DNA from: Chloroflexota bacterium | Lineage (GTDB): Bacteria > Chloroflexota > Dehalococcoidia > JACQUA01 | Assembly: GCA_016210565.1 (NCBI GenBank) | Contig: JACQUA010000334.1 | Span: forward strand, 1 to 64,000 | Direction of reading: 5' to 3' | DNA: 64,000 nucleotides | Shown: one piece after another, positions 24,260-42,364 of the stretch | Position numbering within the stretch: position 1 is the first letter of the stretch | How the letters are laid out: every line of letters starts with the position of its first letter | Program-made: the position numbers and the translations under genes | Notes under the pieces: model-generated | Database searches by the model: none | What the model was told of the DNA's origin: nothing | Seen by the model: only the letters and a program-made list of their open reading frames with translations

Positions 24260-25414
24260 CTACTTTATCCCCATGGCCTCTTTGGCCACCGAGAGCAGCT
24301 TGCCTTTGTTGATAATATAGTCCTCGTCCTGGAGGCTTCCCGAGTCGCCCGGCCCGGGCAACAGGGAGGGATGGACAATTCCCTCGGTGGGAATATCCAG
24401 TCTCAGGGTGGGCTGCTTGAATCCCTTCATGAACAGGGTCTGCCCTTCCTGGCTCAGCAGCCAGTTGACCAGGATGACCGCCGCGCTGGGGTGCGGGGGA
24501 TGCTTCACCATCCCCATTCCTCCCGCCCCTGGGGTGAACTGGCCCCCTTCTTTCGCCTTCACCAGCGCCAGGGGCGCCCCCACCGCCAGGAAATCGGCCA
24601 GCGTGTCCTGGCGGTAGCCCAGCGCGATGGCGTATTTCCCTTTGGCCACCCATTCCATCTGCAGCCTGTAGTCCCGGGTTATCTCAACATCCTGCCGGGC
24701 CAACTGGGACAGGAACTCCCTGGTCTGGTCCATTCCCCAAATGCTCCAGAGAAAGCCAACCCATTCGTTCCCCGAACCGTTGACGCTGGGATCATACATC
24801 GTCATCTTCCCCTTCCATTCCGGCTTCAACAAATCGCGGAAAGAGGCTATGTCGCTCTCCTTGACCAGCGAAGTGTTATAAGCAATGTACCGGGCGTAGG
24901 AGCCGATCATGGCTACAGCCTGGGTCTCCTTGTCAGTAAAGGGCAGACGCTCTTCCCGCCAGGCCTTCGGATTCACCACCTCAGGAAGGAGCAGCGCCGG
25001 CCCGACGGGTTGAAGCACCCCTTTAGGTTTCAACTCGGTGATCAGCGTGGTCATTCCCAGGACCACGGCGTCCGGACGGTAGACAGCCGCGGCGTATTCA
25101 CTGATGATCTTGGTGGCGAGCTGCGGCCCGGTCCCCACCAGGATATCCATGGTGATGCCGTATTTCTGCTCAAAGACTCTGGGCAACTCAGCCCTGGTTT
25201 CCGGGGTGACATTCCCATACACCAGCACCTCGCCTTCTTTTCTGGCGGCCTGCAATGTGCTGTCCCACTTCTCCTGCCACTCCGGTTTCGCGGGCTTCCC
25301 CACAATCCCGGCTACCGCCGGGGCGGCGGGTGGCCCGGTGGGCGTCGCCGCCTGACCGCAGGCGGCGACGACGAGCGCGCCCAATATCAAGATACCGACT
25401 AGCCTGCTGAACAT
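24260..25414 (-). CDS. Lipoprotein extracellular solute-binding protein (SBP 2)
   Basis: A 384-residue lipoprotein SBP. The signal peptide MFSRLVGILILGALVVAAC has its lipid-modified Cys at residue 19. Family blocks are FRDLLKPEWKGKMTMYDPS, then NGSGNEWVGFL, WVAKGKYAIALG and VNWLLSQEGQTLF. GGGAG seven bases upstream supports the ATG. It is the last intact gene of a four-SBP minus-strand array (SBP 5, 4, 3, 2) and lies before the decayed copy. It has no permease or ATPase neighbour. Ligand unknown; the fold is that of the COG1840-like iron/organic anion binding proteins. Confidence 0.85.
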   Translation of the reverse strand: MFSRLVGILILGALVVAACGQAATPTGPPAAPAVAGIVGKPAKPEWQEKWDSTLQAARKEGEVLVYGNVTPETRAELPRVFEQKYGITMDILVGTGPQLATKIISEYAAAVYRPDAVVLGMTTLITELKPKGVLQPVGPALLLPEVVNPKAWREERLPFTDKETQAVAMIGSYARYIAYNTSLVKESDIASFRDLLKPEWKGKMTMYDPSVNGSGNEWVGFLWSIWGMDQTREFLSQLARQDVEITRDYRLQMEWVAKGKYAIALGYRQDTLADFLAVGAPLALVKAKEGGQFTPGAGGMGMVKHPPHPSAAVILVNWLLSQEGQTLFMKGFKQPTLRLDIPTEGIVHPSLLPGPGDSGSLQDEDYIINKGKLLSVAKEAMGIK

Positions 25415-25510
25415 ACCTGACTCCCTTTGTCAATTGGTCAACGAGACCAGTGCCACCCCGATCCATCGGGGCCTGTGAGCTTTATACCATGCCAATGCTG
25501 ATCTACCAGG

Positions 25511-25552
25511 ATTCCCCACCCCAGCAGGCTGAAGACCTGCGACTACTCCCCG
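25511..25552. repeat. Partial copy of the CAGGCTGAAGACCTGCG repeat
   Basis: Shares GCAGGCTGAAGACCTGCGAC with the unit upstream of cbiX (5216-5310). It fills the gap between SBP 3 and SBP 2; the stem GCAGG/CCTGC makes a small hairpin. Confidence 0.55.
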
Positions 25553-25558
25553 GAGTTT

Positions 25559-26716
25559 TCACTTCATCAGCGCCCCGAAGATCTGGTTGGTCATGTTGAT
25601 GACATCCCGCTGGAGGATGAAAAACTCCTCGTCCGCCTGGATGAACTTGTCCCCCGGCCGGGCGATCATGTTCTTGTCGATCCCGTCCGTGGGCGCGTCC
25701 ACGCGGGCGCCGGTCAGTTTGACGCTGCTGACATAGACTCCGTGGCCTTCTTTGCTCAACATCCAGTTGATGAAGACCTGGCTGGCGTTCGGGTGCGCCG
25801 GTTTGGCCGTAATCCCTATGGCTCCGCCGACCGTGTTGACCATGCCGCCCTCCTCGATCTTGACATGGGCCAGCGGCAATTTCAGGTCAATGAACTCCGC
25901 CATCATCTCCGGGTTTGGGGCCAGGGAAATGGCGTATTTCCCCTTGGCGGTCCACTCGGCGTGGAGGCGCTTATCCCTGGTCAGACCCAGGTCCTGGTTC
26001 GCCAGCGCCATCAGGAACTCCTTCGTTCTGTCCAGTCCCCACAGCCGGGCCAGAAACGTCACCATGGAGGCGCCGGAACCGGTGGCCGTGGGGTCGAAGA
26101 GGGCCATCTTCCCTTTCCATTTGGGGTTCAGCAAGTCCTTGTAGGAGGCAATCTCGCCTTCCTTCACCAGATCGGTATTCCGGGCCACGTATTTCTCGTA
26201 GACGGCCAGCATACCGATAAACATTCTTTCCCTGTCTATGAATGGCACGCCGCCTGTTATCCAGGACTTGGGTTCGAGCACGTCCGGTAGCACCAGGAGC
26301 GGCTCCAACTGCCCCAGAAGCCCCGCCTGCTTCAGCCCCGTGAAAGTCCCCCCACCAGAATTGACGACGTCGGCGATAAAGACGCCTCCGCTGTACTCTT
26401 TCTGGAGGCGGGCGCTCAGTTCCGGGCCGCGGCCCGTGACGAACTCTACGCCGATGCCGAACTTCTTGTTCATCGCTTCGGCGATGGCGGTCCGGGTCTC
26501 CGCCGCGGCTGTTGTGTAGTAGACGACCTCGCCCTCCTTCCTGGCCAGGGCGACAGTGTTATCCCATTTTTCCTGCCAGCCCGCCCGGGCGGGTATCCCC
26601 TTTAGACCCGGCGGGACGGTCGGCTCCGGAGTGCCGACCGGCAGTGATTGGGCGCAGGCCGCAGCCAGCAGAGACCCCACGAGCACCAAAGCCACGATAG
26701 ATGCCTTCCTGTTCAA
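25559..26716 (-). CDS. Lipoprotein extracellular solute-binding protein (SBP 3)
   Basis: A 385-residue SBP lipoprotein. I place the start at TTG 26716, because GGAGGG lies six bases upstream and the protein then opens directly with a normal signal peptide (LNRKASIVALVLVGSLLAAAC, Cys at 21); a longer frame to 26746 has no ribosome site. Shared blocks are LLNPKWKGKMALFDPTATGSG, then WTAKGKYAISLAPNP and INWMLSKEGHGVYV. The linker PTVPPGLKGIPARAGW is short. It is the third gene of the tandem array. It is similar enough to SBP 4 to suggest duplication, but the ligand loops differ. Confidence 0.85.
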   Translation of the reverse strand: MNRKASIVALVLVGSLLAAACAQSLPVGTPEPTVPPGLKGIPARAGWQEKWDNTVALARKEGEVVYYTTAAAETRTAIAEAMNKKFGIGVEFVTGRGPELSARLQKEYSGGVFIADVVNSGGGTFTGLKQAGLLGQLEPLLVLPDVLEPKSWITGGVPFIDRERMFIGMLAVYEKYVARNTDLVKEGEIASYKDLLNPKWKGKMALFDPTATGSGASMVTFLARLWGLDRTKEFLMALANQDLGLTRDKRLHAEWTAKGKYAISLAPNPEMMAEFIDLKLPLAHVKIEEGGMVNTVGGAIGITAKPAHPNASQVFINWMLSKEGHGVYVSSVKLTGARVDAPTDGIDKNMIARPGDKFIQADEEFFILQRDVINMTNQIFGALMK

Positions 26717-26762
26717 GTCGATTCCCTCCGTAACCCAATAACTCAATAACTCAAGGAACCCC

Positions 26763-27911
26763 TTATGGTGCGAATATTTCCCTTATCGGCGGCAGCATCT
26801 TTCCCTGGAGCAGGAAGAACTCCTCGTCACCATAGGTGACTTTGTCATTCGGCCCGGCAAAAAACAACTCATCGATGCCCTCCCTGGTTACGTCAATGCG
26901 AGCGGCCGGCAGACGGATGCCCCTGACATAGGCCTCCTGTCCTTCTTTGCTGAGGAGCCAGTTCAGGAAGACGGTGCTGGCGTTGGGATGCGCCGGTTTG
27001 GCGGGAACGGACAGCGCACCCCCCACGGTTTGCAGCCCGCCCCCGTCAGTGAGCCTGACCGAAGCTATGGGCGCCCCGGCCGCCTTGAATTCAGCCAGCA
27101 CGTCCGGCGTCGGGGCTACTGCCAGGGCATATTTTCCGCGGGCCACCCATTCCACCTGTTGCCGCTTGTCCCGGGTGGTCACTATTTCCTGCTTCGCCAG
27201 TCCCCTCAGGAACTCCAGCGCCCGGTCAACGCCCCACACCCGGCCCAGGAAGGCCGACATGGACAGGCCGGAACCCGTCATGGTCGGATCCAGCATCGTC
27301 ATCTTCCCTTTCCATTTGGGGTTCAGCAGGTCTTCCAGGGCGTTCGTTTCCCCCTCTTTTACCAGGTCGGTATTGCGAGCCAGATATCTTTCGTAGTTGG
27401 CCAGCATCCCCAGCACCTGGCCGTCCTTGTCGATAAGGGGCAGCCGGCCTATTTGCCACGCTTTGGCATCCTTTACCTCGGGTAGGATCAACTCGGGTTC
27501 GATGGGTTTCAGCAAGCCCTGCGGCTTCACCACCGTCAGGAGCGTGCCGCCGCCCATGTTGATAGCGTCGGCCAGGTACATGCCGGCGTTGCGCTCGTTC
27601 GCCAGCTTCTGGGCCAACTCCAGGGGCGTCCCGGTGACGAATTCGACCTTTATGCCGAATTTCTTGCCGAAGGCCTGGCTCAGTTCTGTCCTGGGGTCCC
27701 CTCCCCCGATGAAATAGAAAAGCACTTCCTTTTCTGCCTTCGCAGCCGCCACCTTCCGGTCCCATTCAACCCTCCACCCTTCTTCTTTCACCGCCGGGGC
27801 CGCGGCTTTTTCCGCTGGTCCGGCGCCCGGGGCCGGGCCGCTACTGGAAGTACAGCCAGCATAGATGAAGACCAGCAGCAACGCCAGAACGGGATAAGCG
27901 TACTTTGCCAT
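26763..27911 (-). CDS. Lipoprotein extracellular solute-binding protein (SBP 4)
   Basis: A 382-residue SBP lipoprotein starting at ATG 27911, chosen for GGAGG six bases upstream; nine more in-frame codons exist before it. The lipobox is IYAGC with Cys20, followed by a Ser/Pro/Ala linker. Typical blocks are LLNPKWKGKMTMLDPTMTGSG, WVARGKYALAVAPTPDVL and LNWLLSKEGQEAYV, with the C-terminal GDEEFFLLQGKMLP. Position-for-position similarity to SBP 3 is high. Neighbours SBP 5 and SBP 3 lie on the same strand, with small gaps occupied by repeats. Confidence 0.85.
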   Translation of the reverse strand: MAKYAYPVLALLLVFIYAGCTSSSGPAPGAGPAEKAAAPAVKEEGWRVEWDRKVAAAKAEKEVLFYFIGGGDPRTELSQAFGKKFGIKVEFVTGTPLELAQKLANERNAGMYLADAINMGGGTLLTVVKPQGLLKPIEPELILPEVKDAKAWQIGRLPLIDKDGQVLGMLANYERYLARNTDLVKEGETNALEDLLNPKWKGKMTMLDPTMTGSGLSMSAFLGRVWGVDRALEFLRGLAKQEIVTTRDKRQQVEWVARGKYALAVAPTPDVLAEFKAAGAPIASVRLTDGGGLQTVGGALSVPAKPAHPNASTVFLNWLLSKEGQEAYVRGIRLPAARIDVTREGIDELFFAGPNDKVTYGDEEFFLLQGKMLPPIREIFAP

Positions 27912-27930
27912 TCGTGTCCTCCTTCTTTCC

Positions 27931-27990
27931 GGTATCACAGGCTACCGTGCCTGTGCCAAACTCCGGTACCACAGGCCACCGTGCCTGTGC
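27931..27990. repeat. Two tandem copies of the CACAGGCCACCGTGCCTGTG repeat
   Basis: Direct copies at 27931-27955 and 27965-27990, each preceded by GGTA(T/C)CACAGG. They are followed at about 28035-28085 by short TTTGATC/GATCAAA-like direct and inverted words and at 28130-28150 by a CCCGATCGGATCGGGG palindrome. No gene lies in 27991-28163. Confidence 0.7.
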
Positions 27991-28163
27991 AAACTCGCAT
28001 TAGCATAACGACGCATATTGCAACGCCGTAGCGGTTTGATCTATCAAACCCGCTCTGGTTTGTTAAACCCGCGTTGAAGTTTGATGATGATCATTCACAG
28101 GATTACTCAACATGGACAAAACAGGGCTCCCACCCCGATCGGATCGGGGTGGTATCGGAGCAA

Positions 28164-29321
28164 TTACTTCAGCAACGGCCCGAAAATCTCCCTGCTGATA
28201 GGGACCACCGCCGTCTGGAAATTGTAATGCTCTTCATCCTCGTAGATGTACTTTTCGCCCGGCTCCTGCAAGAACATCGGGTTGATGCCTGACGTGGACA
28301 CATCCGTCCGCCGGCTGGGATTGCCCAACCCTTTCGCAAAGACCTCCTGCCCTTCCTTGCTCAGCAGCCAGTTGATGAAAACGATGCTCGCATTGGGATG
28401 GGCCACCCGGGCCGGCACTCCCAGCGCTCCTGAAACCGAGCCGATCTTGGCCCCCTCGTTGACCTTAACCGTGGCGATGGGCGCCCCGGCGGCCAGGAAG
28501 CTCGCAGTCTGTTCCGGATTCGGCGCCAGTCCTATGGGATACTTCCCCCGGGCCACCCACTCCACCATCTGACGCCAGTCCCGGGTCACCACAGGTTCCT
28601 GCTTGACGACCTGTCTGAAAAACTCTTTCGCCTCGTCCATGCCGTAGACCTGGATGACGATAGCCGGGAAAGACGAACCGGCGCCGGGCACCAGGGGGTC
28701 GGCCATCACTATCTTGCCCTTCCACTGCGGCTTCAGCACGTCTTTGTAGCTGGTGATCTCACTTTCTTTGACCATTTCCGTGTTTCGCAGAATGTAGCGC
28801 ATCCTGGTACCGATCATGGCTACGGTGGTCTTATCCTTGTCAAGAAAAGGAAAACCGCCATTCCATAATTTGGGGTCAGTCACTTCAGGCAGGATGAGGA
28901 GTGGTTCGATAGGGCCGAGGAGTTTGGCCGGTTTCATCACCTGGGTAAAAGTAGTCCCGCCGGCGGTAATGGCGTCGGCATTGTATATCCCGGCGTCCCT
29001 TTCCCGGGTGAGCCTGACCGCCAGTTCCCCGCCCAGACCGGATACGAACTCCAGTGTTATCCCGAACCTGGCTTTGAAAGCCTCGGAAAGCAATTGCCGG
29101 CTATCTACCGCGAGAATGGAATAGGAGAGTACGGCGCCTTCAGCCCTGGCCGCTTCTACCGTCCGGTCCCATTTTTCCTGCCAGGCAGGCTTGGCCGGTG
29201 ACTGCGCTGCCTTCGTGGCGGCCACGGGCGTCCCCGGTGGACCAGCCGAAACACACGCGCTGGCCGCAGCCAGGAATACCAGTAACAGCAAAGCTGTAAC
29301 GTACACAGTTTTCATCTTCAT
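28164..29321 (-). CDS. Lipoprotein extracellular solute-binding protein (SBP 5)
   Basis: A 385-residue SBP lipoprotein. ATG 29321 is preferred (GGAGGAT four to ten bases upstream) over an in-frame ATG eight codons earlier. The signal peptide MKMKTVYVTALLLLVFLAAA ends in SAC with Cys23. Shared blocks are VLKPQWKGKIVMADPLVPGAG, then WVARGKYPIGLAPNP and INWLLSKEGQEVF. The ligand-region stretch VTAGGTTFTQVMK differs from the SBP 3/4 pair. It is the first gene of the array, and the gap upstream holds the start of the divergent QatC-like operon. Confidence 0.85.
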   Translation of the reverse strand: MKMKTVYVTALLLLVFLAAASACVSAGPPGTPVAATKAAQSPAKPAWQEKWDRTVEAARAEGAVLSYSILAVDSRQLLSEAFKARFGITLEFVSGLGGELAVRLTRERDAGIYNADAITAGGTTFTQVMKPAKLLGPIEPLLILPEVTDPKLWNGGFPFLDKDKTTVAMIGTRMRYILRNTEMVKESEITSYKDVLKPQWKGKIVMADPLVPGAGSSFPAIVIQVYGMDEAKEFFRQVVKQEPVVTRDWRQMVEWVARGKYPIGLAPNPEQTASFLAAGAPIATVKVNEGAKIGSVSGALGVPARVAHPNASIVFINWLLSKEGQEVFAKGLGNPSRRTDVSTSGINPMFLQEPGEKYIYEDEEHYNFQTAVVPISREIFGPLLK

Positions 29322-29596
29322 GGCTATCCTCCTGTGAGCCTTCAAGCCATCAACGACGCCGGATCAGAATCCGGTGACATTCAATCTGCGTTCTCTCTCC
29401 TCACGCCTTAGCCCTCTCCGGGACGGCAGAGACGCATAACAGCGACTTCAGTCTGAGGAAATGCTACTATACCCCCATACCCTTGTCAAGTTGGAGGAAC
29501 ACAGTGACCTAATTCCGGGACCAGAACTTTCATAACGCGGCCCTCGCCGTGACTTCCGATAGGCTAATTTAGCAAGATTCGCTGATAATGCCTCCG
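29322..29596. other. Divergent intergenic region between SBP 5 and the QueC-like operon
   Basis: No gene. A short stem CCGGAT-N4-ATCCGG lies at 29359-29374. TGTCAA at 29484-29489 is a minus-strand TTGACA, but the following A/T-rich hexamer is only 12 bases away, so a minus-strand promoter for SBP 5 is not convincing. Confidence 0.4.
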
Positions 29597-29646
29597 TTCT
29601 GACAATGAGTCTCATTAACAGGCATAATATATTGACATTGTCAGAA
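29597..29646 (+). promoter_or_regulatory. Promoter and palindromic operator of the QueC-like operon
   Basis: A perfect 11-base inverted repeat, TTCTGACAATG (29597-29607) and CATTGTCAGAA (29636-29646), brackets a promoter: CTGACA (29599-29604), 18 bases, CATAAT (29623-29628), with the start point near 29635. A second palindrome, AATGAG-T-CTCATT (29604-29616), lies within. The ATG follows at 29667. The arrangement is that expected for autoregulation by a dimeric helix-turn-helix protein, and the third gene of the operon encodes one. Confidence 0.68.
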
Positions 29647-29666
29647 TTGTATGCTAGAGTACAGGG

Positions 29667-30338
29667 ATGGCGGACGAAGATATCTTTCAAAAGGGTTTTG
29701 TCCCAGGTTGGCTAAAAGTCTACAGAATGGCCGTCGGAGGGGATGCCAGCCCAAGAGTCATCGGAGCAGCCTGTATAGGTGCTTTAGCGCGAACGCTCAG
29801 GGCGGGGGGAGGATGCCCGGGTTTCAGCAGCTTTGCACACATCGTCAATGCCGCCGAAAAAGAACGCCAATCGTTCCCTCTGCTCGCAGTGAGCGGAATG
29901 CTTGACGATCGCCGAGCCTTTGATTCCCTGAGGAAGATCGAAATAGACAATGGCGGGCACCGTATGACCAGGGTTGCCGCGCGGGCCGCACAACGACTCC
30001 TGGCCAAATCCGTCGCCTCGGGGAGCGGCACTCGCCCTGGCTCGCAACTCCACAGAGACTTGGCCGAAGCCATATGCTGGGAGGTGGTTGACCACCACTT
30101 CTTCGGGCGCGCCAGGGAACTCTTGATCCAGCACCGGTTCGGCGACGCCGCCTCAGAAAGACAGTGGGAGCAAGTTGTAAAAGGGGCTATGCAATTGCCA
30201 CTGAGCAGGCTTGCCAGTGGATTCGCCTCGGATCCGACCGCGCAGCGCTTGCGCGCCCCTCGCCGTTCGGACAAAAGGCTGTCCACTAAACAAATGCTGG
30301 ATGAGCCTTTGACGGGGACTACCGATGGCCCGCCATAA
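29667..30338 (+). CDS. Unknown protein, first gene of the QueC-like/XRE-ImmA/PIN operon
   Basis: A 223-residue protein I do not recognise. It is mostly soluble and helical, with no signal peptide or membrane span. Segments include GWLKVYRMAVGGDASPRVIG, a Gly/Ala-rich helix AACIGALARTLRAGGG, a Trp/His-containing stretch AICWEVVDHHFFGRARELLI and a basic C-terminal third (RLRAPRRSDKRLSTKQML). No metal or nucleotide motif is obvious. Its 3' end overlaps the next gene by 14 bases, so it is made together with the QatC-like protein. It holds the place QatB has in Qat systems, but I see no QatB-like glycine/serine-rich start, so homology is not claimed. Confidence 0.6.
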   Translation: MADEDIFQKGFVPGWLKVYRMAVGGDASPRVIGAACIGALARTLRAGGGCPGFSSFAHIVNAAEKERQSFPLLAVSGMLDDRRAFDSLRKIEIDNGGHRMTRVAARAAQRLLAKSVASGSGTRPGSQLHRDLAEAICWEVVDHHFFGRARELLIQHRFGDAASERQWEQVVKGAMQLPLSRLASGFASDPTAQRLRAPRRSDKRLSTKQMLDEPLTGTTDGPP

Positions 30339-31734
30339 TCACCGTGCGGAAGACACGACCGCCACCCCAATCGGCTCCGGAGGTGTCGAGACTGCCGACA
30401 AGAGCGAGAGTTACTATTGGTTGGACGGCAGGCGATTGTCAAGGGCCTTCGGCCACAATTTGCCGGCACGGCCGGCGGACCTGGTCGACATCGCTATGGC
30501 TGTCTACTACCATGACCGCAGGGTTAAACGGGTCCGCACGCCTCTTGTTCTGACTGGACAACGGAACTTCCGGATTCCAGTGTTGGTCCGAGACCTGGAT
30601 TTCTGGTCTGATCACCAAGTCACTCAGCGGCTAAGTGATGTCCTTTATTGGTTTACCGAGGACGCTTGGGAATTCGAGTTTGGTGAGATCGACCCTCGCT
30701 ACAAGCGGAAAGAGGATGCGTACCTCTTCGAGTCCCCGGTCAGGCGGCCAAATGTAACCTGCCTTTTCAGTGGCGGTCTTGATTCTTTCGCCGGGGCATG
30801 CATTCTCCTTCAGGATGACCCGAACACCTCGGTTGTTTTGGTGGGCGGAAGTACTCACCGGCGACTCGAGAGCGTCCAACGGCGGCTGATAAAGGCATTA
30901 ACGGGCACGTGGCAGTCTGAGTCCAGGGAACTGCGCAGTATTATCATACCGTTCGGGATCCGTCTGCCCAAGGATGGCCACCAGCAGGAGAGGAGCCAGA
31001 GGACCCGAGGCTTTGTATTCATGGCGCTCGGGACAGTAGCGGCCGCAATGGCGGGAAGTTCAGCGTTATACGTTAACGAGAACGGGGTTGGGTCCATCAA
31101 CCTTCGTTACAACGAAGGGCAGCTTGGCGTGGACAGTTCCAGGGGGAGTCATCCCCTTTCCATGGTCAGGATGGAAGAGTTATTTAGCCTTGTGTCACAA
31201 AAGCGTCTGCCGATAGAAGACCCGTTTCAGTTCCAAACCAAGGGCCAAATGTGTCGTAGGCTGGCGAGCGCGAACCTCGCCAGACTCGCGAAGCTTACGG
31301 TTTCTTGCGATGGATATCCTTTGAGAATTCGTGGATCGCCTTCACAATGTGGCATTTGCACTTCGTGTCTATTGCGTCGCCTTGCCCTGGACGCGTGTGG
31401 CTTGAACTATGCCGATGACGGTACTGGGTTCAGGTATGACGTGAAGAACCCTGCCACTCCCCTCAAGATGGGCCAGCTATACCCACTCCAGGCCATGCTG
31501 ACCCAGGCGAGTGTCCTTCGTCAGTGTCTTGATTCCACGACCCCGTGGGAAGCGCTGACGCAAATTTATCCGGAACTCGTCCAGATCCAGCAAGCTATGT
31601 CTGACAATCGTGACATGGACGCGCACCAAATAAGCAAACATCTCATCAATATGTACCGGACTTATGTGGGGGAATGGCAAGGCTTCGCCAGGAACATCCC
31701 CATAGCGACCCTCAGCAAGGAGCCGTCCAAATGA
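30325..31734 (+). CDS. QatC/QueC-like protein (PP-loop ATPase of the 7-cyano-7-deazaguanine synthase family)
   Basis: A 469-residue protein of the QueC-like group found in anti-phage systems such as Qat and type IV CBASS. The PP-loop is FSGGLDSFAGACIL at residues 148-161. The segment RSQRTRGFVFMALG and the long signature NENGVGSINLRYNEGQLG ... SSRGSHPLSM match the QatC-type ENGxxSLNxPL ... STRTTHP pattern. The zinc site is Cys328, Cys342, Cys345 and Cys348 (CGICTSC). True QueC proteins are about 220-240 residues; this is twice as long, with an extra N-terminal domain. No preQ0 genes are nearby, so a defence-type ligation or modification role is likelier than queuosine synthesis. ATGA overlaps join it to the next gene. 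Confidence 0.85.
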   Translation: MARHNHRAEDTTATPIGSGGVETADKSESYYWLDGRRLSRAFGHNLPARPADLVDIAMAVYYHDRRVKRVRTPLVLTGQRNFRIPVLVRDLDFWSDHQVTQRLSDVLYWFTEDAWEFEFGEIDPRYKRKEDAYLFESPVRRPNVTCLFSGGLDSFAGACILLQDDPNTSVVLVGGSTHRRLESVQRRLIKALTGTWQSESRELRSIIIPFGIRLPKDGHQQERSQRTRGFVFMALGTVAAAMAGSSALYVNENGVGSINLRYNEGQLGVDSSRGSHPLSMVRMEELFSLVSQKRLPIEDPFQFQTKGQMCRRLASANLARLAKLTVSCDGYPLRIRGSPSQCGICTSCLLRRLALDACGLNYADDGTGFRYDVKNPATPLKMGQLYPLQAMLTQASVLRQCLDSTTPWEALTQIYPELVQIQQAMSDNRDMDAHQISKHLINMYRTYVGEWQGFARNIPIATLSKEPSK

Positions 31735-32963
31735 GAGAACATGTACTTGACAATGTGGACCCGAGGGTACTGGGTGAACGCCTTCAGGAAGTCCGGAAGA
31801 CCAGAGGACTGACCCAGGAGGACGTGGCGAGGGAATTAGGTATAGCACGGACCTCCATCACGGCTGTTGAGAAAGGGGAGCGAAGGGTACAGGCCGGTGA
31901 GCTTATTAAGCTGGCCAGGCTATACGGGCGGCAGGTGAATGAATTGCTGGGCCAGCGGCGGACCTTCGGGAATTTCGCCGTTCAATTCCGCACGGCCGTC
32001 GCCAGGTCCGGGCAACCCCAGGCGCCAGCAGAGCAAGCCATTGAGGAGTTCCAAAAGCTATGCGAGGACTATCTTTACCTGGAGAAGCTGTGCGGTTCTT
32101 CCCTTCCTCACGATTACCCGCGGGAGTACGGTCTGAACGGCCTGCCCCCCGAGGATGCGGCAGAGGACATCGCTTCCGCCGAGCGAAACCGCCTGAGTTT
32201 GGGCGACGGGCCGGTTTTGAACCTTCGGGAGCTTCTAGAAAACGACGTGGGCCTGCGGATTTTTTACCCCCGATTGCCCTCCCAAATTGCCGGTATGTTT
32301 ACGTTCGGTGATGTGCTGGGAGGTTGCATTGCGGTTAACTCGGTTCATCCTGAAGAACGCCGTCGCTGGTCGCTGGCCCATGAATACGGGCACTTCCTCG
32401 CTAATAGATATCGCTCCGAGGTGTTCGTAACACTTGCTCACGAAAGAATACCGGCATCAGAGAGGTTCGGCAGCGCCTTTGCCGGAGCCTTTCTCATGCC
32501 CGGCCCGGGCCTCAAGCGTCGTTTCAACGAGCTGGCCCGGTGGCGAAAGGGCGGCGCCACCGTTGCCGACCTTTGCCGGCTGGCCCATTACTACTTCGTC
32601 TCGGTGGAGGCGCTGACCCGCCGGCTGGAGGGCTTGGGCCTGCTGCCCATCGGAAAATGGGATACGCTTTCCGAGCGTGGTTTCAAGGTCAGGGAGGCCC
32701 AGGAAATTCTGCAGTTGCCACCCCACCCGGCTGCGGACAATCTCCTGCCGACGCGTTACCAGTACCTGGCGATGGAGGCATATCAGAAAGGCAACCTCTC
32801 CGAAGGACAACTGGCCCGGTTGATGCGCACGGACCGGGTGGGAGTGCGCCGGCTTATGCAGAGCTTGTCCTGCCAACCCCATGTCTCAAGAGATGGTGAC
32901 CTTGTTAGTCTGACGCCCAACCTCAGTCAACCACTGGGGAAGTTGCCCCGCGCCAAAGGTTAG
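31731..32963 (+). CDS. XRE-family regulator fused to an ImmA/IrrE metallopeptidase
   Basis: A 410-residue two-domain protein. Residues about 14-68 are a Cro/CI-type helix-turn-helix (LTQEDVARELGIARTSITAVEKGE). Residues about 185-300 are an ImmA/IrrE (COG2856) zinc metallopeptidase with HEYGH at 217-221 and a downstream acidic stretch. Such proteins sense stress and cleave a repressor or partner; many guard toxin-antitoxin or mobile-element operons. A further C-terminal region (about 310-400, helical, MRTDRVGVRRLMQSLS) looks like a second DNA-binding element. The start ATG 31731 overlaps the preceding stop in ATGA. It is the best candidate to bind the palindromes at 29597-29646. Confidence 0.88.
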   Translation: MREHVLDNVDPRVLGERLQEVRKTRGLTQEDVARELGIARTSITAVEKGERRVQAGELIKLARLYGRQVNELLGQRRTFGNFAVQFRTAVARSGQPQAPAEQAIEEFQKLCEDYLYLEKLCGSSLPHDYPREYGLNGLPPEDAAEDIASAERNRLSLGDGPVLNLRELLENDVGLRIFYPRLPSQIAGMFTFGDVLGGCIAVNSVHPEERRRWSLAHEYGHFLANRYRSEVFVTLAHERIPASERFGSAFAGAFLMPGPGLKRRFNELARWRKGGATVADLCRLAHYYFVSVEALTRRLEGLGLLPIGKWDTLSERGFKVREAQEILQLPPHPAADNLLPTRYQYLAMEAYQKGNLSEGQLARLMRTDRVGVRRLMQSLSCQPHVSRDGDLVSLTPNLSQPLGKLPRAKG

Positions 32964-32966
32964 CCA

Positions 32967-33524
32967 ATGTTTGGTTCTTCGCGCGAATCGATCATCCTCG
33001 ATGCCAGCACCCTGCTGAATCTGTACGCCACCGCGAAACTCCCCGAAATCATATCGGCTCTTCCTGAGAAGTTCCTCGTGGCAGACTACGTATCGGAGCA
33101 CGAGGCCCTCTATACCAGACGCAAAGGCACTGACGGGACAGAAAACAGAGAAGCGGTTGATATCAAACCGCTGCTGTCCGCTGGAGTTCTCAGCGAGGTA
33201 AGACTGAACGACGAAGAAGAACAGAAAACCTTCATTGACCTGGCAGCGGAGCTGGACGACGGGGAAGCAGTCACCATCGCTCTGGCGTTTCACCGCCAAT
33301 ACACGGTAGCTACGGACGACGCCAAAGCCCGAAGAGTGGCATCGTCCGGATGGAACACTCGCACCACCTCAGCCCTCGAACTCATGAAACGGTGGTCAGA
33401 GCGTGCCCAAGCGCAAAGAGAACAGGTCAGGGCTGCGCTATTGGGAATGTGGTCCGGCGCCAGCTATCGCCCTGGGGAAAAAGACCCGCTATACGGTTGG
33501 TGGCAGGACATGGTATCAGAATGA
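32967..33524 (+). CDS. PIN-domain protein (probable toxin nuclease)
   Basis: A 185-residue protein with the PIN-like fold. Asp12 in IILDASTLLNLY, Glu in ELDDGEAVTIALA and Asp in YTVATDDAKARRVA form the usual acidic metal site, in the manner of DUF3368-type and VapC-like ribonucleases. The C-terminal 60 residues (RWSERAQAQREQVRAALLGM and GEKDPLYGWWQD) are extra. The gene starts three bases after the XRE-ImmA stop. XRE-ImmA/PIN pairs are known toxin-antitoxin-like modules; here the pair follows a QatC-like gene. RNA or DNA cleavage is inferred. Confidence 0.78.
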   Translation: MFGSSRESIILDASTLLNLYATAKLPEIISALPEKFLVADYVSEHEALYTRRKGTDGTENREAVDIKPLLSAGVLSEVRLNDEEEQKTFIDLAAELDDGEAVTIALAFHRQYTVATDDAKARRVASSGWNTRTTSALELMKRWSERAQAQREQVRAALLGMWSGASYRPGEKDPLYGWWQDMVSE

Positions 33525-37764: not shown

Positions 37765-37990
37765 TTGTCTGGCCGCCGTAGGGGCGAACCCGTCCCGACG
37801 CATCGCCCCGATGCATCGGGGTCACAGAGCGCAGTGTGTTCGCCCGCCGGCGGGCAGACGCGTTGGTCTGCCCCTACTGTTGGGTCCGAGGATGGTGGAA
37901 CTTTTCGCCGCCCACCAGCGTATTAATCTATAGAAAACGCAATCATTAGAGTTAGGACCGGCTCCCGTCCCGATGCATCGGGGCAGTACC
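37765..37990. repeat. Cluster of GTAGGGGC repeats and CCCGATGCATCGGG palindromes
   Basis: CCGTAGGGGCGAACCCGTCC (about 37776) with an inverted partner GGTCTGCCCCTAC (about 37866-37878), plus two CCCCGATGCATCGGGG palindromes (37807-37822 and 37970-37985). The rest of 37582-38011 has no gene. Confidence 0.65.
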
Positions 37991-38045
37991 GGGTTCAAAC
38001 TGGAGGTCGCCATGAAAGTACAATCATTGTCAGAAAACGAGATCT

Positions 38046-38072
38046 CACAGGCACCGTGGCCTGTGGTACCAC
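38046..38072. repeat. Palindromic repeat separating two alternative starts of the macroglobulin gene
   Basis: CACAGGCACCGTGGCCTGTG followed by GTACCAC is a full unit in the opposite orientation to most copies. On either side stand similar blocks GGAGGTCGCCATGAAAGTAC (38003-38022) and GGAGATCGCCATGAAAATAG (38083-38102). Confidence 0.7.
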
Positions 38073-38092
38073 GTCTTAGTACGGAGATCGCC

Positions 38093-41000
38093 ATGAAAAT
38101 AGAAACTTTGTCAGGAAAACAGGGTGGAGTCCGGAGACAAGAGTCTGGAGTCCTGAGCCCCTTGCGCAGGCACGGAGGCCTGCGCCACCCGGGCCTGCGC
38201 CACCCGGGATGGGCCCTGGCGCTGGTCCTGGCGATGCTGTTGCCCTTCGTAACGGCCTGTCTCGAAGACGAAGGCGTGGACAGCTACGTCGCCCTGGTGC
38301 CGAAAACGCTGAACGCCGGGGAGAACACGGGCATCTCCGTGTCCCTTTTCCGCGGCGAGACCCTGGCCAACGCCAACGTAAACCTCTCTTTGCAAAAAGA
38401 CGGTGAACGCATCTTCCTGGCGCGCCAGTTCGTCCCGGGGAACCTGACGGTCGGCTTCAAAGTCCCTTCCCTGCCCGAAGGCCAATACGATCTGCTCCTC
38501 GAGGGAAACGGCTTCAATGATAAGGCGCCTGTCCAGATAGCCAACTCCCCCCTCATCTTCCTGCAGACGGACAAGCCCATCTACAAGCCCGGCCAGACCA
38601 TCCACATCAGGGCCATCAGCCTGAACTCCGAGCTCAGGCCGGTGGCCGGGAAGGTTACCGTGGAAGCCCTCGACGCCAAAGGCATCAAAGTGCTGCGCAA
38701 GGAGCTGAACACCGATGACTTTGGCATGGCCTCCCTGGACCTGCCCCTCTCTTCGGAACCAAACCTTGGGACCTGGAAACTCACCGCCAATTCCGGCAAA
38801 CAGAAGACCCAGCTCGACGTTAAGGTGGAGAAGTACATCCTGCCCAAATATGAAATCAAGCTGGACCTCGTCAAAGACTGGTACCTGGTGAACGAAATAA
38901 TCAAAGGAGATGTCTCTTCTGAATACAGCTTCGGCAAGCCCGTCGCCGGCGAGGTGGAGATCAAAGCCTCGCGCTACGTGGGCCGCTGGGAGCAGTACGC
39001 CGCCGTATCGAAGACCATTGACGGCAAGACATCCTTTGAGATCCCGGCTGCCGGCTACGTTTCCGGCGTCCCGGGGGCCCGGGGCATGGGCAACGTGCTC
39101 CTGGACGTCATCGTCAAAGAGAAGTCCACCGGCTATGAAGAAAAGACCAACAGGCTGGTGACCATCGCCTCGTCGCCGTTGACCCTGCAACTGATTCCCG
39201 AGAACTCCGTTTTCAAGCCATCCCTGCCCTTCAAGGTGCTTCTCCTTTCGGAAACGCCGGATAACCAGCCCAGAGACGCTGCCGTGAATCTGATCGTCAC
39301 CTACTTGCGGCAGAACTCCCAGCAAATCCGCGCCGACCGGTCAAACGTCGCCACCAGGAACGGCAAGGCCATGCTGGACCTTGCCCCGCCCGCCGACGCC
39401 GCCATAGTCCGGATTTCGGCATCGTCCGAGGGCGCCGGCGCCAGCATTTCTGTCGGCGCGAGTTATTCGCCTTCTGCCAATTTCATCCACCTGGAGCAGA
39501 CCAGCCCCGGCATTCCGAAGGTGGGCGAAGAAATTTCTTTCCAGGTCTACTCCACCAAAGAAGCCGCCAACTTTTACTATGAAATCGTTTCGCGCGGCCG
39601 GGTGGTCTTTTCCGATTTCACCAGAAGCAACGCCATCCGCTTCCAGACCACGCCGCTTATGGCGCCGTCCTCGCGGCTCCTGGTATACCAGATTCTCCCC
39701 AACTCAGAACTCGCGGCCGACAGCCTTCCCTTCAAGGTGACCGGGAGCTACTCCCACAACGCGCAAATCGGATTCAACAAAACGGAGGTCAGGCCGGGCC
39801 AGGAGGTCGGCATCGACATCAAGACCGAAGGCCAGTCGAAAGTGGGCCTGCAGGTGGTAGACCGGTCCGTGTTCATCCTGGCGGAGAACCGGCTCAACCT
39901 GCAGCAGGTCTTTGATGAATTGGAAAAGCTTTACATGAAACCCCAGGTGGAGCTTCATTCCGCCTCGGCCATCCCTCCCATCATCTACCGGGGAGCCATG
40001 GAGACTTTTGCCGACAGCGGCCTCACAGTCCTGACGAACAAGAACATTCCCTCCGGCGAGGAATTCAAGAAGACCCTACCCCAGCGGGGTGGAGTTGCGG
40101 GAGAGGTCGGCCCGGCAGGTCCGCCGTTCCTCATGAGAGACGGCGCGGTCCCACCACCCGTCCCCCGCCCCCTCGCTCCCGGGGCTGAAAAGCAGGCTGC
40201 CGCGGCAGCGACTCCTGCCCCCGGCCAGCTTGCCGAAGTCCAGAGGGTCCGGCAGTTCTTCCCCGAGACCTGGCTCTGGCAGGACATCACCACCGACGCC
40301 AACGGTCTGGCTTCGCTGAAAGTCAACGCTCCCGATTCCATCACCATCTGGAAGTTGTACGCCGTGGCCCTTTCCAGAGAGAAAGGCCTGGGCATCAGCG
40401 AGAGCGACCTGAAGACCTTCCAGCCGTTCTTTATCTCCATCGACCTCCCCTACAGCGCCATCCGTGGCGAGACCTTCCCGGTGAAAGTCGCCATCTACAA
40501 CTACCTCAACCAGGCGCAGGAGGTCTTCGTCGAAATCGAAAAAGCCCCGTGGCTCGACCTTCTGGACCAGGCGACCAGGACCGTCAGGATCGCCCCCAAC
40601 GACATCGGCGGCGCGGAGTTCAGAATCCGGCCCGGCAACCTGGGCGTGAACCAGGTCAAGATTACCGCCCGGAGCGCCCAGTTCGCCGACGCCGCCATCA
40701 AACCCATTATCATCGACCCCGAAGGCGTCGAAAGGGAAACGGTGGAAAACATCATTCTTGCCGGCGGCGCATCCAGGACCGTGAACACCGGGCTGCCTCC
40801 GGGCATCGTGGACGGCTCCGGCCGCGTCTACCTGGCCTTATCGGGCAGCTACCTGACCCAGAGCCTGGAAGGCCTGGAAAAGCTGCTCCAGATGCCCTTC
40901 GGCTGCGGCGAGCAGAACATGATCCTGCTGGCCCCGAACATCTACGTGACCTCCTATCTCAAGGAGACGGGCCAGCTCAAGCCGGAGGTCATGGCCAAAG

Positions 41001-42364
41001 CCGAAATGCTGATGATCACCGGCTACCAGCGCGAGCTTACCTACCGGCGGCAGGACGGCTCCTTCTCCGCCTTTGGCAACAACGACAAGGAAGGAAGCCT
41101 GTGGCTCACCGCGTTCGTGGCCAAGAGCTTCGCCCAGGCCAAAGACCTTATTTACGTGGACCCGGCGGTGATAGACGGGGCCAAACAGTGGATTCTCCGC
41201 CACCAGAAAGCGGATGGCTCCTTTGAATCGGTCGGCTTCGTAGCCCACCAGGACATGATGGGCGGGGTCACCGGCAAGGACGCCCTGACAGCTTACGTAG
41301 CCATCGCCCTGCTGGAGACCGGCGATAGGGAAGCCGCCGGCCGGGCCATCCGGTACCTGGAAGGGAAGATTGACGCCATTGATTCACCGTACACCATGGC
41401 CATCGCCGCCTACGCCCTGGAGCTGGCCAATAGCGGCCAGAAGGACCGGGCCTATCAAAAACTCATGGGCATGGCCTCGCAGGACGAAAACGGCCTCTAC
41501 TGGTCGCCGCCGATGCCCGTTCCCCTGCCAATGGGCCAGGCCCAACCCGGCATCTTCCCGCCCATCCGTCCGGTACCCTCCAAGACAACGGCCATCGAGG
41601 CCACCGCCTACGCCACGCTGGCCCTGAACAAGCACGGCGACCGCTTCAACGCCGGCCGGGCCGCCCGCTGGCTCACCTCGAAGAGGAACGCCTTCGGCGG
41701 CTTCGGCAGCACCCAGGATACGGTGGTCTCCCTCCAGGCCCTGACTGAATACGCCCGGTCGGCCCGGCTCGACGTCGACCTGAAGATCACGGTGGACATG
41801 GGAGCGGAGAAGAAAGAGCTTCGGGTCAACCAGGAGAACGCCGAAGTCCTCCAGTTGGTCAGCATCCCGGCGCGGGACCAGATATCCGTCAAGGCCGAAG
41901 GCAAGGGCGACGCAGTGCTCCAGATTGTCAAAAGGTACAACCTGCCGCAGTCGCCGAAAGAGGAGTCCAGGGACTTCCAGATCAAGGTGGACTACAACAC
42001 CAGCCAGGTGGCGGTGAACGACATCGTGAAGGTTACCTCGGAAATCCAGTTCACCCCCGCCATGCCCCTCAAGGCCGAGATGGTGGTGCTGGACATCTCC
42101 GTGCCGACCGGCTTTGCGCCGGTGACCGAGTCCATCGACCAGGCGGTCAAGGGGGCCGGCAAGATACAGCGCTATGATATCGCCGGCAGGAAGGTGATCT
42201 TCTACATCGTGGACATGGCGCCGGGGGAGAGGCTGGGCTTCACCTTCGACATCAGGGCCCTCTACCCGGTCCGGGCCGAAGGCGTTGCTTCGCAGGTCTA
42301 TTCGTATTACAAGCCCGAAAGCCGGGGCGAGACCCTGGGCCAGGGACTCGTCGCCGTTCCGTAG
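38093..42364 (+). CDS. Alpha-2-macroglobulin-family lipoprotein with an intact thioester
   Basis: A 1423-residue protease-trapping protein. A long basic N-terminus (partly encoded by repeats) leads to a lipobox, FVTAC, with Cys56, so it is probably tethered on the outside of the membrane. Macroglobulin domains follow (FLQTDKPIYKPGQTIHIRA near residue 160). A Pro/Ala/Gly-rich bait-like region lies at about 660-715, then VRQFFPETWLW and DSITIWKLYAVALSREKGLG. The thioester is GCGEQN, with Cys938 and Gln941, and the helical thioester domain includes YRRQDGSFSAFG. The receptor-binding-like C-terminus (VLDISVPTGFAPV) ends at 1423. The motifs resemble animal A2M more than the enterobacterial YfhM type. 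No PBP1c gene is adjacent. Starts at 38012 or 37973 are also in frame. Confidence 0.88.
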   Translation: MKIETLSGKQGGVRRQESGVLSPLRRHGGLRHPGLRHPGWALALVLAMLLPFVTACLEDEGVDSYVALVPKTLNAGENTGISVSLFRGETLANANVNLSLQKDGERIFLARQFVPGNLTVGFKVPSLPEGQYDLLLEGNGFNDKAPVQIANSPLIFLQTDKPIYKPGQTIHIRAISLNSELRPVAGKVTVEALDAKGIKVLRKELNTDDFGMASLDLPLSSEPNLGTWKLTANSGKQKTQLDVKVEKYILPKYEIKLDLVKDWYLVNEIIKGDVSSEYSFGKPVAGEVEIKASRYVGRWEQYAAVSKTIDGKTSFEIPAAGYVSGVPGARGMGNVLLDVIVKEKSTGYEEKTNRLVTIASSPLTLQLIPENSVFKPSLPFKVLLLSETPDNQPRDAAVNLIVTYLRQNSQQIRADRSNVATRNGKAMLDLAPPADAAIVRISASSEGAGASISVGASYSPSANFIHLEQTSPGIPKVGEEISFQVYSTKEAANFYYEIVSRGRVVFSDFTRSNAIRFQTTPLMAPSSRLLVYQILPNSELAADSLPFKVTGSYSHNAQIGFNKTEVRPGQEVGIDIKTEGQSKVGLQVVDRSVFILAENRLNLQQVFDELEKLYMKPQVELHSASAIPPIIYRGAMETFADSGLTVLTNKNIPSGEEFKKTLPQRGGVAGEVGPAGPPFLMRDGAVPPPVPRPLAPGAEKQAAAAATPAPGQLAEVQRVRQFFPETWLWQDITTDANGLASLKVNAPDSITIWKLYAVALSREKGLGISESDLKTFQPFFISIDLPYSAIRGETFPVKVAIYNYLNQAQEVFVEIEKAPWLDLLDQATRTVRIAPNDIGGAEFRIRPGNLGVNQVKITARSAQFADAAIKPIIIDPEGVERETVENIILAGGASRTVNTGLPPGIVDGSGRVYLALSGSYLTQSLEGLEKLLQMPFGCGEQNMILLAPNIYVTSYLKETGQLKPEVMAKAEMLMITGYQRELTYRRQDGSFSAFGNNDKEGSLWLTAFVAKSFAQAKDLIYVDPAVIDGAKQWILRHQKADGSFESVGFVAHQDMMGGVTGKDALTAYVAIALLETGDREAAGRAIRYLEGKIDAIDSPYTMAIAAYALELANSGQKDRAYQKLMGMASQDENGLYWSPPMPVPLPMGQAQPGIFPPIRPVPSKTTAIEATAYATLALNKHGDRFNAGRAARWLTSKRNAFGGFGSTQDTVVSLQALTEYARSARLDVDLKITVDMGAEKKELRVNQENAEVLQLVSIPARDQISVKAEGKGDAVLQIVKRYNLPQSPKEESRDFQIKVDYNTSQVAVNDIVKVTSEIQFTPAMPLKAEMVVLDISVPTGFAPVTESIDQAVKGAGKIQRYDIAGRKVIFYIVDMAPGERLGFTFDIRALYPVRAEGVASQVYSYYKPESRGETLGQGLVAVP

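Follow-up and report, generated by a model that had tools for sequence, protein, structure and literature searches.

Four tightly spaced plus-strand genes in a 64,000-nucleotide stretch of Chloroflexota DNA (the window) raise the question of what a QatC-type enzyme does in one operon with a helical protein of no recognised family, an XRE-ImmA regulator and a PIN-domain nuclease, and whether the set is an undescribed defence system. When the open reading frames were read again, their strand, sizes and overlaps were the same as those given in an earlier sequence-only reading: genes 1 and 2 overlap by 14 bases, genes 2 and 3 by an ATGA, and genes 3 and 4 are separated by a 3-base gap. The window annotation shows no QatA, QatB or QatD in the immediate neighbourhood of the operon. 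Its features are as follows.

29598..29607, plus strand: upstream operator half-site TCTGACAATG, its TGACA 33 bp upstream of the operator TGACA
29632..29644, plus strand: operator palindrome TTGACATTGTCAG / TTGACAWTGTCAG upstream of gene 1, holding a -35-like hexamer (29632-29637)
29655..29660, plus strand: candidate -10 box TAGAGT, 17 bp past the -35-like hexamer, as read from the sequence
29667..30338, plus strand: gene 1, 223 aa, all-alpha protein of unknown family with a MADED N-terminus, in the position of QatB
30325..31734, plus strand: gene 2, 469 aa, QatC-type enzyme of the QueC family with SGGLDS, TK and CGxCxxCLLRR motifs
31731..32963, plus strand: gene 3, 410 aa from the ATGA start, XRE HTH fused to an ImmA/M78 domain (HEYGH)
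32967..33524, plus strand: gene 4, 185 aa, divergent PIN-domain nuclease with conserved acidic residues

To find related loci, the QatC protein was used as query, followed by alignments of QatC. The order gene 1, QatC, XRE-ImmA, PIN was found at 23 loci, window included, in Chloroflexota (Dehalococcoidia, Caldilineaceae, Anaerolineae, Chloroploca and Tengunoibacter), Cyanobacteria (Scytonema, Acaryochloris, a Thermosynechococcus MAG and others) and Acidobacteria (two genomes). All four genes are recognisable at 21 of the 23 loci. One locus is cut by the contig end (L034, which stops inside XRE-ImmA with PIN beyond view), and one has genes 1 and 2 fused by a natural deletion that joins the 5' part of gene 1 to the 3' part of QatC (L085:7985-8722). 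Recurrence in unrelated genomes had been proposed as a check by the sequence-only reading, and the set was recovered from three phyla. Pairwise protein distances of the four genes across 17 loci were correlated at r = 0.91-0.97, a level never reached in 999 permutations; therefore, the four genes travelled together. The earlier proposal of a single system is borne out by these correlated distances and by the same order at 22 further loci in the three phyla. No copy of the four-gene QatC clade was found in IMG/VR viral contigs, and PLSDB plasmids gave partial QatC-type matches only, with no record at 80% coverage.

Comparison of the loci supports one unit made of two separable modules. The gene 1-QatC pair occurs without XRE-ImmA and PIN at L021, XRE-ImmA and PIN occur without QatC at L057 and L058, and XRE-ImmA occurs without QatC or PIN at L056. 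A tree with several weakly supported forks places the stand-alone XRE-ImmA/PIN proteins within the XRE proteins of the four-gene loci, which makes repeated gain or loss of genes 1 and 2 probable. Such separate occurrence is also what would be seen if genes 1 and 2 were the whole defence, and an independent XRE-ImmA/PIN addiction module had captured them, supplied their promoter and retained the cassette in the genome. QatB-QatC alone defends P. aeruginosa against some phages, with an N-terminal modification proposed (PMC13279940), and the L021 pair lies beside other defence genes. Furthermore, an interruption is found in gene 1 of L019 and L080 and in QatC of L037, and the deletion in L085 affects both genes, with XRE-ImmA and PIN open in all four; XRE-ImmA is open at every locus having its complete gene. 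However, the four genes have been strongly co-inherited across deep divergences and have a single operator before gene 1, both of which suggest that more than a chance capture is involved, and we consider this reading fairly unlikely.

In the sequence, the modules are linked by a shared operator; since each module also occurs without the other, a functional coupling beyond shared transcription is conjectural. A TGACAWTGTCA palindrome lies upstream of gene 1 at 22 of the 23 loci, and the window contains a single exact match, at 29632..29644. When at most one mismatch was allowed within 150 bp of gene 1, the palindrome was present at 21 of the 22 loci counted, and at L080 as well if the distance is measured from its true gene 1 start; the L020 operator is a variant one base shorter. 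A second TGACA stands 32-33 bp further upstream at 17 of the 22 loci. The operator is about 150 times denser upstream of gene 1 than elsewhere in the same loci. TGACAWTGTCA-like matches inside some qatC genes, which apparently fall on a conserved LTMSCD coding stretch, were not accepted or counted as operators.

The same operator precedes the stand-alone relatives L057 and L058 (XRE-ImmA and PIN) and L056 (XRE-ImmA), whereas L021 (gene 1-QatC without XRE-ImmA) has none, and none is seen where other Qat-type loci begin. Because the operator tracks XRE-ImmA and is missing from Qat-type loci without it, XRE-ImmA very probably controls all four genes, presumably by binding this palindrome. In the window, only 6 nt separate the end of the candidate -10 box from the gene 1 ATG (29655-29667), and no clear Shine-Dalgarno sequence is seen, which suggests that the gene 1 mRNA is leaderless here, unlike that of several relatives with GGAGG.

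Gene 2 was assigned to the QatC type by PADLOC (E 9.5e-50), with a Pfam QueC match and a phmmer match to the solved QatC 9zee (E 2e-23). The NCBIfam QatC model gave E 7.4e-55 with 186 bits, below its curated cut-off of 280. A housekeeping QueC of preQ0 synthesis, about 220 aa in length, was rejected: gene 2 encodes 469 aa, scores 14.7 bits with the NCBIfam QueC model (cut-off 150) and has no QueD or QueE neighbours in the window annotation. Length, family scores and neighbourhood therefore all agree with the QatC-like assignment made in the sequence-only reading. In a maximum-likelihood tree, QatC proteins of the four-gene loci and of L021 formed one clade (100/100), separate from canonical qatABCD QatC (100/98) and from a second separate group (99/96), in which most proteins carry a fused DpnII/MboI-type nuclease domain.

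Other QatC variants were encountered in the search. L022-L025, L102 and a Leptospira noguchii plasmid (NZ_CP091938.1:62720-63499) carry two-gene Qat-like loci with an MGHxRxG partner and a QatC of about 600 aa, fused to a DpnII/MboI-type nuclease domain in three of the four tested. At L101:5872-8132, the upstream partner of another QatC variant begins MGSQS. L028:7785-10619 encodes, in a row, a protein with a weak FokI cleavage-domain match, a short MGTSTNQ protein and one that is QatC-like.

The window gene 2 retains the ATP-loop, zinc and TK motifs, and its loop equivalent to the QatB-contacting loop of the P. aeruginosa structure is of matching length. The substrate site is different. Threonines T278 and T280 of QatC are invariant and essential (PMC13279940), and both stand in an STRTTHP-type motif in all nine canonical copies examined. 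Their equivalents are Ser/Gly in the window, and Tyr, Ser or Thr plus Gly, Ser or Ala across the four-gene clade. Since the QatC threonines are lost in this clade, the substrate of gene 2 probably differs from that of canonical QatC. In addition, the last Ser of SGGxDS is replaced by Ala in the cyanobacterial copies and in Tengunoibacter. This replacement, together with the lost threonines, makes a QatC-type activity uncertain, and enzyme activity may differ between branches of the clade. The earlier suggestion that the QueC-like enzyme modifies something is plausible by homology (PMC13279940), although pocket and target N-terminus differ from those of Qat and Cap9.

The presumed target is gene 1. 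It has no family match in Pfam, NCBIfam, PADLOC or PDB sequences. Its AlphaFold model is all-alpha (pLDDT 87) and has no match in PDB or viral fold libraries; the fold search gave no QatB match, and a QatB control model, itself poor, likewise missed the solved QatB. A profile comparison of gene 1 with QatB by hhalign returned a probability of 0.4%. On sequence, a true qatABCD system with a diverged QatB was rejected, gene 1 having no sequence relation to QatB, although the two proteins may or may not share a fold. Intact four-gene copies begin Met-(Pro/Ala/Thr)-x-x-Asp, except L079 (Met-Asp-Gly-Asp), and several of these starts are backed by Shine-Dalgarno-like sequences. Methionine aminopeptidase would remove the Met and expose Pro, Ala or Thr. 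No member of the gene 1 family has Gly2; QatB begins MGTS, and partners of the other QatC branches begin MGHxRxG or MGSQS.

Gene 3 combines HTH_3 and Peptidase_M78 domains and matches RmrA of RosmerTA (PADLOC E 9.1e-23). Gene 4 has a weak Pfam PIN match (E 0.23) and no match to any PADLOC RmrT model; D12, E46, D97-E100 and D117 are conserved in the family, with the first aspartate lost in L020. ImmA-type antitoxins are established in RosmerTA, and PIN-like partners have been reported (PMC10440598). XRE-COG2856/PIN pairs were predicted and classed as toxin-antitoxin or stress modules (PMC2701414). The stand-alone pairs at L057 and L058 carry the same putative autoregulatory operator.

The sequence-only reading had proposed that ImmA-mediated cleavage releases the PIN nuclease. 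In the fuller form considered here, infection would activate the peptidase, which would cut its own XRE domain or another antitoxin. The window copy has HEYGH, and the ssDNA-activated ImmA-type peptidases PprI and CapP cleave repressors (PMC10904395). Against this, the catalytic Glu of HEXXH is kept at 12 of the 23 loci, window among them, and replaced by Asp or Gly at the other 11, as well as in the stand-alone L058; both His residues are invariant in the family alignment. Because of these replacements, canonical metalloprotease activity is not required by the family, and proteolysis was rejected as a family-wide mechanism. Some members may still cleave. The proposal is therefore weakened, and release by cleavage appears very improbable.

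The surroundings of the loci bear on function. The L100 cassette has an integrase and a full-length Avs4 gene as neighbours. About 1 kb upstream of the L020 copy is a gene for a CARF-PDDEXK nuclease, and L019 has a QatA-like KAP NTPase gene nearby on the other strand. The two-gene relative L021 has pPIWI_RE on one side and a type IIG restriction enzyme on the other, and a NACHT-like gene lies in the same interval. Adjacency to known defence genes, another feature raised earlier, holds for these four relatives and fails for most copies, window included, which lie among ordinary genes. A PADLOC scan of 96 flanking proteins gave mostly generic kinase-type models and was uninformative on defence islands. 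In the window, the minus strand at 24260-29345 carries four tandem paralogous extracellular solute-binding proteins, and a bacterial alpha-2-macroglobulin of 1463 aa lies at 37973-42364.

The ordinary flanks of most copies, and the stress-module classification of XRE-COG2856/PIN pairs, would also fit an operon for stress response, or an ordinary toxin-antitoxin operon, in which the QatC-like enzyme serves regulation by modifying a protein of the host or of the operon itself. However, QatC, RmrA-type XRE-ImmA and PIN are each characteristic of defence or toxin-antitoxin systems, and the defence genes beside some copies and beside L021 likewise weigh against a role outside defence. The distribution is also patchy, with eight full-length matches in 292 cyanobacterial genomes. 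We regard a non-defence operon as improbable. Because defence genes lie near some copies and QatC belongs to a tested defence system, the evidence favours, rather than proves, a defence role, and the anti-phage function is putative.

Taken together, the locus may equally well be or not be what we propose as its best explanation: a mobile, presumably anti-phage operon that joins a QatB/QatC-like pair to a RosmerTA-like XRE-ImmA/PIN module. It probably works like Qat, by analogy, with the QatC-type enzyme acting on its partner protein. The scheme that we infer gives XRE-ImmA a double part as repressor and antitoxin and adds a protein modification, a coupling of the modules, an infection trigger and an anti-phage outcome. 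At rest, XRE-ImmA on TGACAWTGTCA over the -35 box would keep the operon low and, as antitoxin, would neutralise the PIN ribonuclease. The QatC-type enzyme would consume ATP in modifying protein 1 at its N-terminal residue, which after loss of the Met is Ala here and mostly Pro in relatives, and the modified protein would form a QatBC-like surveillance complex with the enzyme. Upon infection, a change in this complex or in XRE-ImmA would derepress the operon and free PIN, which would cut RNA and stop phage growth or the cell. ImmA proteolysis would be optional, since the catalytic Glu is missing from about half of the family. A more specific version is rather unlikely. In it, a QatC-type ligase whose substrate site resembles neither QatC nor Cap9/QueC would modify N-terminal Pro, Ala or Thr, instead of Gly, on a helical protein unrelated to the known partners, and the state of the complex would gate PIN through a non-proteolytic XRE-ImmA antitoxin.

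A 2026 structural paper (PMC13279940) leaves open by what route the chemistry of QatC restricts phages. The four-gene loci form a natural clade in which the enzyme core is kept, the presumed target N-terminus and the substrate pocket are changed, and a nuclease toxin lies in the same operon. With this clade, it can be tested directly what is attached by QatC and what the modification governs. The loci further show QatC-type genes paired with different nucleases (TatD, a DpnII/MboI-type domain and PIN), and XRE-ImmA proteins that are retained although the catalytic glutamate has gone.

Several known systems share parts of this operon. In type IV CBASS, the QueC-family enzyme Cap9 is presumed to target a partner protein at its N-terminus, as proposed here; however, the partner here lacks Gly2 and the enzyme is of the QatC rather than the Cap9 type. 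The operon contains no CD-NTase or Cap10, and no CD-NTase was seen among the annotated flanking genes. In CapH/CapP and PprI/DdrO, an XRE-type HTH and an M78 metallopeptidase control a linked operon, as may be the case here, whereas here both domains are in one protein, a toxin gene follows and half of the family has lost the catalytic Glu. RosmerTA (RmrT-RmrA) and the XRE-COG2856/PIN pairs likewise place an HTH-ImmA antitoxin or regulator beside a toxin. They differ in that the present loci have two further genes, for a QatC-type enzyme and its partner, between the operator and the module, and in that the catalytic Glu has gone from about half of the family.

The closest likeness in the upstream half is to Qat. 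Both have a QatC-type enzyme (QueC core, ATP loop, zinc motif and length of the QatB-contact loop) with a helical partner gene directly upstream. Qat has the QatA KAP NTPase and the QatD TatD nuclease, both missing from the window operon, and only the window operon has XRE-ImmA and PIN downstream. QatB begins MGTS, whereas the partner here begins MP, MA or MT-x-x-D and has no detectable QatB homology. Qat keeps two invariant QatC threonines and the four-gene clade has lost both. The operon is not called Qat because several tests of qatABCD membership gave negative results. The earlier statement that no described system has this four-gene set agrees with the open-access literature, where none was found, most subscription papers and bioRxiv preprints lying outside that search. 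QatBC is the minimal unit of Qat, and qatA or qatD stands beside only about one third of QatC-cluster genes (PMC13279940, PMC13329287). The four-gene operon is real and widespread and, within the literature covered, an undescribed composite; it is probably a variant of this anti-phage system.
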